NCBI RefSeq assembly: GCF_011758805.1
Contig: NZ_JAANOW010000003.1
Span: 310,001 to 374,000 of the forward strand
DNA from: Mycolicibacterium fluoranthenivorans
Lineage (GTDB): Bacteria; Actinomycetota; Actinomycetes; Mycobacteriales; Mycobacteriaceae
Direction: 5' to 3'
DNA: 64,000 nucleotides
The first letter of the stretch is position 1. Every line of letters begins with the position of its first letter. Shown here piece after piece: positions 3,562 to 55,679 of this stretch. The notes under the pieces are model-generated. The model was not told where the DNA came from, searched no databases, and worked only from the letters and a program-made list of their open reading frames with translations. A program made the position numbers and the translations under genes.

Positions 3562-4260
3562 GTGCCCATCGATACCTCGTACCAGGACGTTTGGATCGTC
3601 GTCCCCGCCTTCAACGAAGCGAGCGTCATCGCCGACGTCGTCGCCGATCTGCGCACCGTCTTTCCTCATGTGGTGTGCGTGGACGACGGCAGCCGCGACG
3701 GCACCGCCGATGCCGCGTACGCCGCGGGCGCGCATGTGGTGCGCCACCCGGTGAATCTCGGGCAGGGTGCGGCGATCCAGACCGGCGTGGAGTACGCGCG
3801 CGCACGTCCCGGCGCGGCGGTGTTCGTCACCTTCGACGCCGACGGCCAGCACCGGGTCAAGGACGTCATCCGGATGATCGACCGGCTTGCCAGCGATGAC
3901 GTCAATGTGGTGATCGGGACCCGGTTCGGCGGTGCGGTGACCCACACCCCTCCACTCAAGCGGGTCATCCTGCGGGCCGCGGCGATCATCAGCCCGCACA
4001 GCCGCAGTTTGGGCCTGACCGACGCCCACAACGGGCTGCGCGTGTTCGACAAGGTCGTGGCCGACGAGCTCAATATCACCATGAGTGGGATGGCGCACGC
4101 CGGCGAGTTCATCGCGCTGGCAGTCGAAAACCATTGGCGGGTGGCCGAAGAGCCGGTCGAGATCCTCTATACCGACTACTCGAAGTCCAAGGGCCAGCCC
4201 TTGGTCAACGGGGTCAACATCCTGTTCGACGGCCTGCTGCGCGGGAGGATGTCCCGATGA
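3562..4260 (+). CDS. ppgS: Polyprenyl-phospho-N-acetylgalactosaminyl synthase (GT2 family)
   Basis: A family 2 glycosyltransferase of about 232 residues, dolichol-phosphate-mannose-synthase type. The fold start is VVPAFNEASVI, followed by VDDGSRDGT, and the metal/sugar DxD-type motif is TFDADGQH. In M. tuberculosis the equivalent Rv3631 transfers GalNAc from UDP-GalNAc to polyprenyl phosphate, supplying the galactosamine found on arabinogalactan; Rv3632 boosts its activity. Order with the next gene (ATGA overlap) is the same here. GTG 3562 is preferred; TTG 3559 is also in frame. Confidence 0.85.
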   Translation: MPIDTSYQDVWIVVPAFNEASVIADVVADLRTVFPHVVCVDDGSRDGTADAAYAAGAHVVRHPVNLGQGAAIQTGVEYARARPGAAVFVTFDADGQHRVKDVIRMIDRLASDDVNVVIGTRFGGAVTHTPPLKRVILRAAAIISPHSRSLGLTDAHNGLRVFDKVVADELNITMSGMAHAGEFIALAVENHWRVAEEPVEILYTDYSKSKGQPLVNGVNILFDGLLRGRMSR

Positions 4261-4607
4261 ACTGGATCCAGGTGCTGTTGATCGCCTCGATCATCACGCT
4301 GATGGTCTACCTGCTGCGGTCGCGGCGCAGCGCGCACGCCAAGGCCTGGGTGAAGCTGGGCTACCTGCTGTTCGTCATCGCGGCGATCTACGCGATCGTG
4401 CGCCCCGACGACACCACCGTGGTGGCCAACTGGCTCGGGGTGAAGCGCGGGGCGGATCTGCTGGAGTACGCACTGATCATCGCGTTCCTGTTCACCACGA
4501 TCAGTACCTACATGCGGTTCAAGGATCTTGAGTTGCGCTTCGCGCGGCTGGCGCGTGCGGTGGCGCTCGACGGGGCACGCGCACCGTCCGACGATCCGGC
4601 TCAGTAG
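4257..4607 (+). CDS. DUF2304 small membrane protein, PpgS partner (Rv3632-like)
   Basis: 116 residues with three hydrophobic helices (IQVLLIASIITLMVYLL; LGYLLFVIAAIYAIV; YALIIAFLFTTIST) and a basic, then acidic tail. DUF2304 proteins regularly pair with GT2 polyprenyl-phosphate glycosyltransferases and are thought to hold or activate them at the membrane; for Rv3632 activation of Rv3631 has been reported. Translationally coupled to ppgS by a 4-bp overlap. The 3' end overlaps the convergent TetR gene by 7 bp. Confidence 0.85.
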   Translation: MNWIQVLLIASIITLMVYLLRSRRSAHAKAWVKLGYLLFVIAAIYAIVRPDDTTVVANWLGVKRGADLLEYALIIAFLFTTISTYMRFKDLELRFARLARAVALDGARAPSDDPAQ

Positions 4608-11162: not shown

Positions 11163-11179
11163 CCTGCAGAAACAAAGAG

Positions 11180-11218
11180 AGCCGCCCAGGGGAATCGAAC
11201 CCCTGACCTTCTCATTAC
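11180..11218 (-). other. attL: displaced 3' part of the host tRNA-Thr gene
   Basis: Reading leftward, this is the 3' part of a tRNA-Thr from the anticodon loop on: GTAATGAGAAGGTC, then T-arm AGGGG-TTCGATT-CCCCT, then acceptor GGGCGGCT. The core GACCTTCTCATTAC (11205-11218, plus strand) is repeated at 55632-55645. Since the tRNA 5' half is at the right end, this fragment is the original host 3' end pushed away by integration. It is not a working tRNA. Confidence 0.92.
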
Positions 11219-11331
11219 AAGGCAACCAATCGGGGTGCGATCGTCCCACTTTCCTGGAGCAACGTAGTTCCCCTGGCTCCACCGCGGCGCCGGGAATGGT
11301 CGCCCGCTGACGTGCCGGGCAGGATCCCAGC

Positions 11332-11616
11332 GTGACCGCGACACAGCAGGTCTACACCGTCACCGAGCGCACTGACGGCCTACCTGGGTTCAGCGCCTAT
11401 GCGGGTGACGGTCTGCACTGGATCGCGTCGGCCTCGCCGCACACCGGCAACTACGCCGAGCCGGGCAGTTGGTTCGTGATGCTCGGCCTGGACGCCACAG
11501 GCACCATCGGCTGCCCTCCGGGGATGGCGTTCACTGTTGGCGACGAGGAGTACGCGCGACAGTGGGTTGACGTGCTGGCACGGATGTACCTTGCCGATCC
11601 CGCAGACCCATCGTGA
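11332..11616 (+). CDS. Phage hypothetical protein between attL and integrase
   Basis: 94 residues, no family recognised; acidic and aromatic-rich (GLPGFSAYAGDGLHWIASAS). Starts at GTG 11332. In the circular phage genome this start overlaps, as GTGA, the stop codon of the longer viral form of the repressor, so the two would be translationally coupled. In the prophage that coupling is lost because the repressor frame is cut at attR. Confidence 0.6.
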   Translation: MTATQQVYTVTERTDGLPGFSAYAGDGLHWIASASPHTGNYAEPGSWFVMLGLDATGTIGCPPGMAFTVGDEEYARQWVDVLARMYLADPADPS

Positions 11617-13313: not shown

Positions 13314-14933
13314 CTACCGGAGTCCGTTGACGCGGTCTTTGTGCACCGGCCGGTCCGCGAACCCGTCGAGGATCATCTTCGTGCCGAGGTAGACCGTTCC
13401 GGGTAGGTCCGGGTGGATGCTGTCGACGGTGGACAGCAGGCGGGCCTGCTGAGAGTTCGTCGGCACACCGCGGGTGCCGCCGGCCGACGCGAGTGCCGGC
13501 CCCATCCCGGTCCACCAGCGGCTCGCAGCGTCAGGACCGAACATGTTGACGAACTTCACCCAGTCGCGCTCCTGCGCGGCCCGCCGCTGCGCCTTCGTGT
13601 AGACGTCGCCGCTGTCACCGTCACGCGGCGCACCGACACTGCCCACGCCCGTGTTGTTGTTGAACAGACCATCGTCGAACGGCTCTACCCCGAAGTGGAC
13701 AACTTGGCAGTACGGATCGACGCTATGCACCCAGTCCCAGTTTTCGGCGATGCGCGCGTACATCTGGGCGTCGGTGATGTTCGTGAGCAGCGACCGGTCG
13801 TTCCACGTCCCCAGGACGCCGAGCGCGAGCGGCCGGGTGCCCAGTGGTCCGCCGAAGAACTCTCCGACGTAGTTCTGAAATGCTGGCTTGCCGATGCCCT
13901 GGATTGCGGTGTTGGCGTCGGTCATCCAACCGCGCCGCGACGAGAATCCGGCACCTGCCCCCGAGAAGTAGCGGGAGAGCCCTGTGGTGGTGACGTTTCC
14001 GACCGGGAAAACGGTATTGACCGCTGTGCCGACGCTGTCGTCCGTGACGTAGCCCGCGCCGTTCGTGAAGAACCCTGTTGAGCCTTGGCCGAACCCGACG
14101 ATCGGAATCGTGGAGAGCATCCACATCTGGCGGTAGATCGTGCCGAGGTAGAACTGGTTGACGTTGTCAGTGCACAGTGCCTGCGACGTCTCGCCGTAGG
14201 AGTCCGTTTCCATGCCGATCGGGGCCTGATAGGGCGATGGACGGATGATTGACGTTGTGTCCGTGCGGATCCCAGTAAAACCACACGTGCCGAATCGGAG
14301 CTTGATCTTCGTCTCGGACTGCCAGTTGTTGAACACCACGTTGTGAAATGTGTGGTACCCGCTCGTGCTCGTGACGAGCATCGGCGTCGTCTGGCAGGCG
14401 TAGTAATCGCCGTCAACCTCGATGAACATTTCGATGTTGCCGGCGTAGTTCGGCGCGGTGTTGTTGCCGCCGAGATTCATGTGCACGTCGGAGAACGCGA
14501 TACCGGTGAACAGGAATTCAAGCTCGGTGATGTGCGGGAAGATCTCGTCACTCAGCCCGGCACCAGGCGCGCTGAACCGTCTGGGAGTCGCGCAATTGCA
14601 CACGCCGCCGTACGTCTGCGGGCCAGACAGCGTGGGCCTGATATGCCTAATCCATTTCTGCCCAAGGGTATTGAATGGGTAGGGATTGGCCGCGTCGTAG
14701 CTTCCGCCTGCGCCGCCGCTAACCGATCCGTCCAGCCGTCGAAGGTTGGTCTGCGATCCGTCAGTGTTGGTCGCCCAGTCCCCCCACCGGTATTCCTTGG
14801 CCGTGCGGCCCCCGGAGGTGAAGTTGAGCGCGGTTGCGCTGATCTCATTGGTGGCCAGGATCCCAGACGGGATGATCCCGGCCACCGGCTTCATCAAGTC
14901 ACCGAGCAGGACATAATCGGAGAACTTGCTCAC
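13314..14933 (-). CDS. Tail-associated SGNH/GDSL-type hydrolase, catalytic residues present
   Basis: About 539 residues. A beta-rich N-terminal half precedes a hydrolase domain with SGNH blocks: nucleophile region METDSYGET (Ser about residue 244), GTWNDRS (about 376) and DSIHPD (about 506). Likely a virion tail esterase or adhesin acting on cell-envelope polymers. Starts at GTG 14933, overlapping the upstream stop (GTGA). It shares layout with the next upstream protein (GIIPSG versus GLIPSG near the start), so the two look like diverged duplicates. Last gene of the late leftward run. Confidence 0.7.
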   Translation of the reverse strand: MSKFSDYVLLGDLMKPVAGIIPSGILATNEISATALNFTSGGRTAKEYRWGDWATNTDGSQTNLRRLDGSVSGGAGGSYDAANPYPFNTLGQKWIRHIRPTLSGPQTYGGVCNCATPRRFSAPGAGLSDEIFPHITELEFLFTGIAFSDVHMNLGGNNTAPNYAGNIEMFIEVDGDYYACQTTPMLVTSTSGYHTFHNVVFNNWQSETKIKLRFGTCGFTGIRTDTTSIIRPSPYQAPIGMETDSYGETSQALCTDNVNQFYLGTIYRQMWMLSTIPIVGFGQGSTGFFTNGAGYVTDDSVGTAVNTVFPVGNVTTTGLSRYFSGAGAGFSSRRGWMTDANTAIQGIGKPAFQNYVGEFFGGPLGTRPLALGVLGTWNDRSLLTNITDAQMYARIAENWDWVHSVDPYCQVVHFGVEPFDDGLFNNNTGVGSVGAPRDGDSGDVYTKAQRRAAQERDWVKFVNMFGPDAASRWWTGMGPALASAGGTRGVPTNSQQARLLSTVDSIHPDLPGTVYLGTKMILDGFADRPVHKDRVNGLR

Positions 14934-16204
14934 CGAATCCGCCTCGCGCGCAGCGTGTCGACGATCTGCTTGCCCGCCTCGACGGCCAGCAGTGCGGCCA
15001 GCCACGCGTTACCGTCGCGGTTCGGATTCTGCCCGTCAGCACCGATGAGCGGCGCCTGCTGCGCCAGGTTGAATGCCGGCGCGGTCGGCCCAAACAGATT
15101 CAGATAGGCGGCGTTCTCGACGTCAGCAATCGCGGCGGCCTGCTCGCGCCGGTTGAAATCGTTACTGCTGTCAGCGGTGGGCGGGCCCGTGACGGTGCCC
15201 GGGCCACCGGCCCCGGTGAACGGCGGCGGTGACACGTGCAGGATGAAGCATCGGGTGTCCTTGCTGCGGAACCACGCGTAGCACTCGTCAGCGCGGGTGG
15301 CCATCGGGCCATTGCTGGCGCCGGTCGCACCGGATCGACCGCCGTCGTCGAGGGTGCCGAGCAGGATGTAGAACAGTGGCTTGTCCTGAAAGTCCGACTC
15401 CAGGATCGCCTTTCGGCTGGCTGAGAAGAACCGGCTGCCGCCGTCTGCTGCGGGCGTATCGTCCGAGACCGTGGCGCTACCGTTGTAGAAGAATCCCGAG
15501 GGCATCCCGCGGGCCGCGGTGACGATGCCGGTGCGCTCGAAGAACAGCTCAGCGACCCCGGCGGTGAGGTAGGACGTGCCGGAGGCCTGCTTGAGCCCGG
15601 CTGCGTCGGCCCACTTGCCGCCGTCGAGGATCGCGAATGGGCGGTCCGGGGCTTTCGCGACGATCGAGCTCTGTTCGGTCTTGATGCCGACCAGCGCGGC
15701 GCCGCCGATGTGCACCCGGACCCGGCCCGTGTAGCCCGCTGGGAATGTCAGCGGCAGGTGGATGACGCCGGGCGTCGTGCCGACCACCGGGGCGGCAGTG
15801 GCCTTGTACAGCTTGCCGAAGTACTCCACGAAGACCTGGCAGTCGTAGGAGGCGCTGCCGACCATCACCACGTCGAGGTTCCCGCCGGCATGCAGAAACT
15901 CGAACGCGATGACGTGATTGATCGGCGAACCACCCGAAATGCGGGGCGTCGCAACGTTCTTGCACCCGTTACTCGGTGTGCCATCGACCGCCTGCCAGTG
16001 CTGGCCCTGGGTGCTGAACAGTCCCGAGTTCCACAGGATCGTCGCCAGGTTCGTGTAGGTCTGGGCCGCCGCGGAGAACGCGCCGACCGTGACCACTCCG
16101 GAGGGGATCAGGCCGCGTACCGGGTCGTATCGGTGACTGGCGCGGGTGCGCTCCCATAGCGCGGTCGGAAGTTCCCAGCCGTCTTCTTTCGCAACGATGG
16201 GCAT
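14930..16204 (-). CDS. Tail-associated protein, SGNH-like paralog lacking the active-site residues
   Basis: 424 residues. It has the same overall plan as the 539-residue neighbour: GLIPSGVV start, beta-rich part with a VFVEYFGKLYKA stretch, then a hydrolase-like domain. In the hydrolase part the nucleophile block reads AILDGGKWAD (no GDS Ser), GTLDDGG replaces GTWND, and GADGQNPNRDG replaces DSIHPD, so both Ser and His seem lost. Probably a structural or binding tail protein derived from an active enzyme. Confidence 0.62.
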   Translation of the reverse strand: MPIVAKEDGWELPTALWERTRASHRYDPVRGLIPSGVVTVGAFSAAAQTYTNLATILWNSGLFSTQGQHWQAVDGTPSNGCKNVATPRISGGSPINHVIAFEFLHAGGNLDVVMVGSASYDCQVFVEYFGKLYKATAAPVVGTTPGVIHLPLTFPAGYTGRVRVHIGGAALVGIKTEQSSIVAKAPDRPFAILDGGKWADAAGLKQASGTSYLTAGVAELFFERTGIVTAARGMPSGFFYNGSATVSDDTPAADGGSRFFSASRKAILESDFQDKPLFYILLGTLDDGGRSGATGASNGPMATRADECYAWFRSKDTRCFILHVSPPPFTGAGGPGTVTGPPTADSSNDFNRREQAAAIADVENAAYLNLFGPTAPAFNLAQQAPLIGADGQNPNRDGNAWLAALLAVEAGKQIVDTLRARRIR

Positions 16205-55031: not shown

Positions 55032-55214
55032 TCACGCGGAAGCCTCGACCCCGAGCAGCGCCTCGATATCACTCAGGCGGAAGCGGTAGTGCCCGCCGGG
55101 CGTGGTGAATGCGGGCGTGATCTTGCCCTCGGAGACCCATCTGCGCACCGCTGACGAATCAACGCCGAAGCGATCAGCAACACCGCTTGTAGTAATAAGG
55201 TCCACTTTGGGCAT
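55032..55214 (-). CDS. Small MerR/HTH_17-type DNA-binding protein, Cro- or Xis-like
   Basis: 60 residues: ITTSGVADRFGVDSSAVRRW, then VSEGKITPAFTTPGGHYRFR and LSDIEALLG. Excisionase-type winged helix. It is the first gene leftward from the immunity region, divergent from the repressor, where Cro sits in phages such as BPs. It could act as Cro, Xis or both. Confidence 0.75.
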   Translation of the reverse strand: MPKVDLITTSGVADRFGVDSSAVRRWVSEGKITPAFTTPGGHYRFRLSDIEALLGVEASA

Positions 55215-55259
55215 GCCGAAAGAGAATCACATCCGTGTAAGTAGTGTCAAGGTCCACTT
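55197..55259 (-). promoter_or_regulatory. Early leftward promoter with two AAGGTCCACTT repeats
   Basis: On the minus strand TTGACA (55250-55245), 16 bp, then GATTCT (55228-55223); the Cro-like ATG is at 55214, so the leader is a few bases at most. The 11-bp repeat AAGGTCCACTT occurs at 55197-55207 (first codons of the Cro-like gene) and 55249-55259 (touching the -35). The spacing and places fit repressor operators that shut this promoter. Confidence 0.6.
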
Positions 55260-55333
55260 ACGGTGCGATTCGCTTCTAGGCGTGCAAACCGGGCAGATTG
55301 CGCGAACAGTGCGGAACGTGCAAAATGTCACCC

Positions 55334-55651
55334 ATGAGCGTGGAGCCAGAATCGCGACCATGGGTACCAGACGACAGCGCCTTTGGAGCGCGACTAGCGA
55401 TGGTGCGCCAGCGCATGGGCTGGAACATCAAAGAAGCGGCCTTCGCGTGCGGCGTCAAAGGCACGTCGTGGCGCGGATGGGAGCTTGAAGGTCGCCGACC
55501 GCGCGACCTCGACGATGTCTGCCTGAAGATCGCAAGCCACACCGGCTGCAACGACTACTGGCTGATGACCGGCCGCACAACACCAAACGGCGGTGGGGGT
55601 GGAGAGAGCCGCCCGCGGGAATCGAACCCGCGACCTTCTCATTACGAGTGA
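55334..55651 (+). CDS. Phage repressor, prophage-truncated form; attachment core lies inside its 3' end
   Basis: 105 residues from ATG 55334 (ATG 55325 is an alternative). XRE-type helix-turn-helix: FGARLAMVRQRMGWNIKEAA, then FACGVKGTSWRGWELEGRRP. The last residues (SRPRESNPRPSHYE) are encoded by the opposite strand of the tRNA-Thr 3' half, and the stop TGA (55649-55651) is host DNA 3 bp past the core. In the circular phage the frame would instead continue after Tyr into the left arm for 38 residues (KATNRG...GRIPA). This is the repressor layout of integration-dependent immunity. -10-like CAAAAT at 55321 suggests a leaderless start at 55334. Confidence 0.85.
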   Translation: MSVEPESRPWVPDDSAFGARLAMVRQRMGWNIKEAAFACGVKGTSWRGWELEGRRPRDLDDVCLKIASHTGCNDYWLMTGRTTPNGGGGGESRPRESNPRPSHYE

Positions 55652-55679
55652 GATGCTCTACCGACTGAGCTAGGGCGGC
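55607..55679 (-). tRNA. tRNA-Thr (anticodon CGT), hybrid host/phage gene at attR
   Basis: 73 bases folding as a complete cloverleaf: acceptor GCCGCCC/GGGCGGC, D-arm GCTC/GAGC, anticodon stem TCTCA/TGAGA with loop CTCGTAA (anticodon CGT), T-arm GCGGG-TTCGATT-CCCGC, discriminator T, no encoded CCA. The 5' part is host, the 3' part from the core on was brought by the phage. Compared with the displaced host copy at 11180-11218, the T-stem differs at two pairs, both kept paired. Confidence 0.95.
55632..55645. other. attR core
   Basis: GACCTTCTCATTAC, identical to 11205-11218. It covers the anticodon loop and the 3' side of the anticodon stem of tRNA-Thr, where many tyrosine integrases cross over. 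Beyond it to the left the two copies stay similar (tRNA 3' half) but not identical. Confidence 0.9.

Follow-up and report, generated by a model that had tools for sequence, protein, structure and literature searches.

The window, by which we mean the whole stretch of 64,000 nucleotides of Mycolicibacterium fluoranthenivorans DNA analysed here, carries a prophage whose repressor gene runs into the right attachment site, and this raises the question of whether insertion of the phage switches immunity on by shortening its repressor. The initial annotation had proposed so, and our analysis arrives at the same view: the switch is in all likelihood integration-dependent immunity (IDI) of the Brujita/BPs kind, a mechanism that is already known. 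The attachment site lies inside the repressor gene, and insertion very probably cuts off a tail and turns immunity on. What is new here is that, read in the frame of the repressor, the arm of the host tRNA at which the phage inserts contains a TGA, and this stop is removed in the phage copy by paired T-stem changes.

The prophage measures 44,427 bp from core end to core end, has a GC content of 65.4% and is inserted in a tRNA-Thr(CGT) gene (Table 1). The tRNA gene reconstructed at its right end reaches 74.2 bits with the Rfam tRNA model and forms 5/5 T-stem pairs; attB overlaps the tRNA gene, which is rebuilt on integration. In the window's genome, the tRNA-Thr(CGT) pattern matches only this rebuilt gene, apart from the attL fragment. 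The attL and attR cores have 43 common bases with four mismatches, which represent two complementary T-stem pairs and are not noted in the initial annotation; the core had been called identical in the initial annotation, and this applies to its last 14 bases, the four mismatches speaking against identity over all 43. To the left, attL is flanked by an acyltransferase-like gene, and a DNA polymerase III delta-type gene lies to the right of the tRNA gene. Alignment of 29 relative loci (~1.5 kb each side) to the left flank yielded one locus (L091, in genome G493) matching the acyltransferase stretch, and there the acyltransferase gene, an intact tRNA-Thr gene and the DNA polymerase III gene are contiguous, which shows the empty site in this one genome. 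Between the integrase and the tail genes of the prophage, two ORFs on the minus strand (13314–15005 and 14930–16204) have no PHROG or Pfam match.

Table 1. Features of the prophage and its insertion site, with positions in the window.
Feature	Position	Strand	Remarks
attL core, displaced host 3' part of tRNA-Thr(CGT)	11176–11218		repressor-frame TGA at 11204–11206
Displaced repressor 3' tail, 38 codons plus TGA, KATNRGAIVPLSWSNVVPLAPPRRREWSPADVPGRIPA	11219–11335	+	codons 11219–11332, TGA 11333–11335; joined only in the excised phage (predicted)
94-aa ORF between tail and integrase	11332–11616	+	coding-like composition
Tyrosine integrase, 328 aa, ends ...DADADAA	11649–12635	+	PF00589
Divergent HTH_17/MerR-type gene, 60 aa, at the position of a Cro/Xis-like gene	55032–55214	-	profile
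19-nt direct repeat copy 1, candidate operator	55189–55207	+	84% alike
19-nt direct repeat copy 2, candidate operator	55241–55259	+	84% alike
Repressor, prophage form, 105 aa	55334–55651	+	phrog_2328 transcriptional repressor; start ATG 55334, alternatives in frame ATG 55325 or TTG 55298; stop TGA 55651
attR core, tRNA 3' part from phage	55603–55645		CGA at 55631–55633 where the host has TGA
Reconstructed tRNA-Thr(CGT), host 5' part and phage 3' part	55606–55679	-	ARAGORN and Rfam

Both forms of the repressor ORF are directly visible on the sequence. In the prophage, the ORF crosses the attR core, continues for one host codon (GAG) and ends at TGA, and joining of the prophage ends at the core keeps the frame open for 38 more codons. 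On both points the initial annotation had coordinates and codons right. The common core of attP lies inside the repressor ORF, and the stop at the host junction shortens the prophage form to 105 aa as compared to 142 aa in the predicted viral repressor. The stop of the long form overlaps the start of the 94-aa ORF as GTGA, an overlap that had been regarded as hard to explain by chance and as an argument for the long form being the real viral protein. This argument is weak. When reading starts at random positions of the prophage, the frame is open for at least 38 codons in 56% of cases, and in 7.3% it closes with a GTGA at which an ORF of at least 94 aa starts. The overlap is weak evidence taken alone, because of the latter rate and because a last codon GCG before TGA always contains GTGA. 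GCGTGA also closes five of the 12 free-phage repressors read, namely those of Popper, Elesar, Bowser, EricDab and Tarzan, none of which belongs to the Brujita group; the seven Brujita-group repressors and those of three cluster P phages end in TAG. In view of the chance rate and the GCGTGA endings in these five phages, we rejected the overlap as proof of the long form, for which conservation of the tail in the matching frame speaks instead.

This conservation became apparent from prophages of related genomes. A V[VIL]P motif, chosen after the tails had been seen, occurs in the repressor-frame tail of five out of six prophages at tRNA-Thr(CGT), followed from the integrase survey described below or from IMG/VR, in which both ends are readable and the repressor frame is open for at least 100 aa (the exception being G407), as compared to 0/12 in the other frames. 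At tRNA-Thr(CGT), the repressor frame is 0 in the window, G602 and G407, -1 in G398 and G450, and -2 in G767. In G725 and G747, where a contig end interrupts the repressor, the motif appears in a single frame of each; in these two and in G450 both prophage ends lie on separate contigs and were paired by inference. All-against-all comparison of nine tails (window, G602, G747, G407, G725, G398, G767, Babsiella and Elesar) gave a mean score of 31.2 versus 20.8 for shuffled tails, and 0 out of 1000 shuffles reached it. Kept outside this set were Brujita (near Babsiella), the 13-residue tRNA-Lys tail of M. canariasense, G450 (read later), the tRNA-Lys tails of loci L128 and L137, Xula, QueenHazel, mika, ridax, BIB1, Popper, Bowser, EricDab, Tarzan and cluster P. 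When the window tail was compared to single tails, its score was reached by 29 of 5000 shuffles for G602, 68 for Babsiella, 104 for G725, 169 for Brujita, 274 for Elesar, 530 for G767 and 4006 for M. canariasense; it was not above shuffles against several single relatives, namely G747 (1224), G407 (1087), G398 (1277), Popper (3162), Bowser (3888), EricDab (4068) and Tarzan (3050). These alignments point to a clear family of tails, of which the window tail is, with moderate confidence, a member. It is this comparative evidence, i.e. the motif in the own frame and the tail family, that lifts the observation above chance.

The tails differ in their last residues. They end in -RIPA in the window, -KVPA in G602, -PIPA in G725, -EKIA in G747, -DVA in G398, -IAA in G767, -TGT in G450 and -KAS in G407, the latter being the tail without the motif. 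The idea that every tail ends in Ala was rejected owing to -TGT and -KAS, and Ala also ends seven of 31 ORFs in the window. The predicted viral repressor lacks an ssrA-like -AA tag, and from its -RIPA end and the other endings it follows that the signal here would not be the classical -AA; candidate signals in members without -AA are the mid-tail V[VIL]P and the -[IV]PA end shared by the window, G602 and G725. We do not take the lack of an -AA tag as excluding IDI, as untagged members are filed under IDI in the account given in PMC8092301.

Once the prophage ends are joined, the integrase gene lies downstream of the repressor, and its product shares 74.7% identity over 269 residues with the Brujita integrase. 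No Pfam match to an arm-type DNA-binding domain was obtained in it, a profile search that cannot prove absence. The integrase carries an -AA tag, as do those of G602, G407 and G725, and among eight phage integrases read seven end in -AA and that of Tarzan in -VA. The order of repressor, attP and integrase claimed initially is borne out. Between repressor and integrase lies the 94-aa ORF, an arrangement for which there is precedent in M. abscessus prophages (PMC8092301). This ORF has no relative in viral contigs and no PHROG or Pfam family; its one phage match is weak (E 0.03). Across the control region, separated by a 119-bp gap, lies the divergent DNA-binding gene. It had been labelled Cro-like, and a divergent HTH gene is indeed present, but its profile is of the MerR/excisionase type HTH_17. 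The 19-nt direct repeat GGTCCACTT, with one copy at the beginning of the divergent gene and the other in front of it, was not found in seven other loci examined, and a scan of 55150–55360 revealed no sigma-70-like promoter.

Could the tail have another role, or none? It is unlikely that it acts as an oligomerisation or partner-binding element, leaving the long form stable and regulated differently rather than degraded. The variable ends and the position of the conserved element, which is the middle V[VIL]P and not only the last residues, would suit such a role, but in BPs the two forms of the repressor do not differ in DNA binding, and it is targeted degradation that makes the long one inactive (PMC4557955); the -AA ends of the integrases from the window, G602, G407 and G725 speak against such a role as well. 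Quite improbable is a scenario in which attP just overlaps the repressor end and both forms work alike, the tail being an accidental open frame: the frequency of frames open for at least 38 codons and the missing -AA end are compatible with it, whereas in relatives the protein sequence of the tail is conserved, each time in the frame of the own repressor and across three frames, and free phages with intact attP have the same construction. Finally, it is highly improbable that the prophage is decayed and its att arrangement of no further consequence, since, although the collections searched (phages, IMG/VR, genomes of the genus) yielded neither a free phage nor a circular contig with the window attP and an IMG/VR contig identical to the prophage represents the integrated form, its long open frames match profiles of terminase, portal, protease, capsid, tape measure, minor tail, endolysin, RecT and exonuclease as well as DNA methyltransferase.

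IDI is well supported by the gene order, the homology to annotated IDI phages and the conserved tails in matching frame, which bears out the initial assignment to the BPs/Brujita type. Against it count the missing excised form in the collections searched, the -RIPA end, the failure of the window tail to exceed shuffles against several single relatives, the deviating tails of G407 and G450, the empty promoter scan and a repressor in G386 described below. In the phage, with attP joined, the 142-aa repressor would carry the tail that marks it for proteolysis, and no immunity would be established. The integrase encoded downstream would recombine attP with the tRNA-Thr(CGT) gene, and in the prophage the tail lies 44 kb away and the repressor stops one residue past the core at a TGA in the host part of the tRNA gene. 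The stable 105-aa form would then repress the early promoters and hold lysogeny. At the same time, these 43 bases double as tRNA 3' part, where the paired T-stem changes of the phage copy keep the fold and remove the TGA from the repressor frame. Within this scheme we infer excision, tail-directed proteolysis and loss of immunity by the long form; degradation is put forward with this reserve because the tail ends in -RIPA and not in -AA.

The last step of this scheme concerns the T-stem, which reads AGGGG/CCCCT in the host and GCGGG/CCCGC in the phage, with 5/5 pairs each. In the repressor frame, the core of the host fragment encodes SRPGESNP, a stop and PSHY, and the phage copy encodes SRPRESNPRPSHYE. 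With the host T-arm in the repressor, the stop would therefore fall inside the core in phage and prophage, and no switch would be possible. Of 148 genomes surveyed in the genus, 143 contain the tRNA-Thr(CGT) pattern and 86 have the in-frame TGA; the phage type of the window, CCCGCGACC, had no second occurrence in this survey. Seven prophages with an attL/attR pair were compared, leaving out G407 with a base lost in the host copy. Between attL and attR, two T-stem pairs are changed in the window, three in G398, one each in G602, G767 and G450, and none in G725 and G747; that is, eight pair changes occur across five of the seven prophages, with all host and phage stems remaining paired at 5/5. 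In G602, pair 49–65 is the sole difference in a 40-base block and converts TGA to CGA. The T-arm type of the G602 host is that of the intact tRNA in G493, and the window host has the type of G482.

However, such changes are not confined to cases where the frame needs them: G398 (frame -1) and G767 (frame -2) reside in TGA hosts, yet their phage copies are also non-TGA, and we rejected T-stem recoding in this strict form. All four prophages in TGA hosts have a non-TGA copy irrespective of their frame, which leaves selection for read-through unproven; acquisition of the T-arm from a non-TGA host would explain these copies too. The phage copy of G767 has three acceptor changes as well, which leave two positions unpaired (by eye), similar to an M. 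abscessus prophage at tRNA-Thr (PMC9934374); core mismatches in BPs preserve tRNA pairing (PMC9262239). Adjoining an intact tRNA-Thr gene in G764 (L160–L166) is a 24-kb non-IDI element with its own tyrosine integrase and no long frame into the core. This element, a single control, has a TGA-type T-arm over a CGA host. In the literature searched we found no description of the removal of an in-frame stop from an att core; the founding paper (Broussard 2013), outside that search, may have one.

We tentatively suggest, as a reading that is possible while falling short of probable, that the 43 bases are triply constrained, as core, as tRNA 3' part and as codons, and that phages resolve the conflict via re-pairing of the T-stem: the native sequence of hosts with A49–U65 would give the repressor frame a TGA and abolish the switch, and phages that read this frame carry G49–C65 and thereby, on lysogeny, replace the T-arm in the single tRNA-Thr(CGT) gene of the host. 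If so, it would depend on the T-stem allele of a given host which repressor frames are able to use the tRNA-Thr site. The paired changes illustrate a way for a virus to code protein through a host tRNA that stays foldable.

The switch has relatives of several kinds. A search of the phage collection with the repressor protein matched 36 records, 18 of them covering at least 80% of the query, with Brujita, Babsiella, Xula and Island3 among them; the repressor also matches a prophage repressor in record MW584187, which is annotated with attP inside the gene. Of 396 genomes in the genus, 19, among them that of the window, encode integrases related at E ≤1e-60, and one IMG/VR contig (L116, IMGVR_UViG_2593339259_000002) ends at the start of an integrase that is 93% identical to that of the window. 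In M. canariasense, a prophage at tRNA-Lys(TTT) with an identical 52-base core has a repressor that is 72% identical over residues 1–93 and a tail, joined by eye, ending in -FAA; thus, repressor and site have been exchanged between relatives. Related integrases are also found at tRNA-Lys in L128 and L137, where the tails contain VVVPLSDRR and KVVDFPGRP and end in -AA (by eye). At the tRNA-Thr gene, different prophage repressors read the gene antisense in three frames, with stops one, seven or nine codons past the core (L141–L168). The IMG/VR contig L007 encodes at 4001–4267 a different HTH repressor that ends in the antisense tRNA-Thr peptide ESRPRESNPRPSHYE and is 39% identical over residues 14–105, mostly in the tRNA part (by eye); it may be an independent IDI switch that uses this tRNA gene. 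A Brujita-type repressor at tRNA-Thr in G386 (L014, G386:C23:646-976) continues past the core without a stop, giving an open frame of 232 aa, for which IDI offers no explanation; the tRNA there has a predicted anticodon AGT and no U33 (by eye), and the tRNA-Thr(CGT) pattern was not found in G386.

The closest known counterparts are Brujita, Island3 and Babsiella (cluster I1), with the comparison to Brujita being confined to the immunity and integration cassette. They share homologous repressor and integrase, the antisense tRNA-Thr segment, a VIPL tail and the divergent HTH gene; Brujita gp34 is 58.5% identical to the window repressor over 94 aligned residues (tblastn, 51% over residues 8–105). 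In Brujita, Babsiella, Xula, QueenHazel, BIB1, mika and ridax, an uninterrupted frame of 128–131 aa from an upstream ATG traverses the antisense tRNA-Thr segment into a tail with the VIPL motif; the annotated start lies further downstream in Xula and QueenHazel, and mika and ridax have no annotated repressor CDS. The cluster P phages Fishburne, Donovan and Shipwreck have a different N-domain fused to a Brujita-type segment and tail. The window differs from the Brujita group in its tail end (-RIPA versus -HAA/-AAA), the extra 94-aa ORF between tail and integrase and the T-stem sequence. Use of tRNA-Thr, thought initially to make this a new version, has an antecedent in Island3 (99.8% ANI to Brujita), whose attB was assigned by BlastN to tRNA-Thr Msmeg_6152 according to PMC3029335. 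The Arthrobacter phages Popper and Elesar have a similar N-domain (58–60% identical over residues 1–78), DVIKF in the tail and a GCGTGA stop overlapping a 94-aa ORF, but differ in their core and in the annotation of the gene product as Cro or HTH protein. The window tail does not exceed shuffles against Popper and does so only in part against Elesar.

The IDI prophages of M. abscessus, as presented in PMC8092301, likewise have repressors truncated at att, and some have genes between repressor and integrase or tails without -AA, for which other signals are presumed. The different tail named initially sets the window apart from the -AA of the Brujita group and has precedents in these prophages. 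MabB and MabK have the tRNA transcribed toward the truncated repressor, as in the window (PMC8092301); MabB adds seven residues, like the frame -1 reading at tRNA-Thr, and the window repressor adds one. M. abscessus repressors have been reported to read tRNA-Thr in different frames (PMC9934374), and in four M. abscessus records the match is confined to repressor residues 10–78 (58–62%).

Taken together, our data add one IDI switch in a mycobacterial prophage and assemble a natural comparison set, in which repressors of several types with related tails read a single tRNA site in three frames. BPs (cluster G), compared by its published description, resembles the window in having attP in the repressor, long viral and short prophage forms, the integrase in the same operon and pairing-preserving core mismatches (PMC4557955, PMC9262239). 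Its tag is ssrA-like according to PMC4557955, and PMC8092301 places BPs among the users of other signals. BPs differs in using tRNA-Arg and in reaching its stop at the junction base, whereas the window repressor reads one host codon first.
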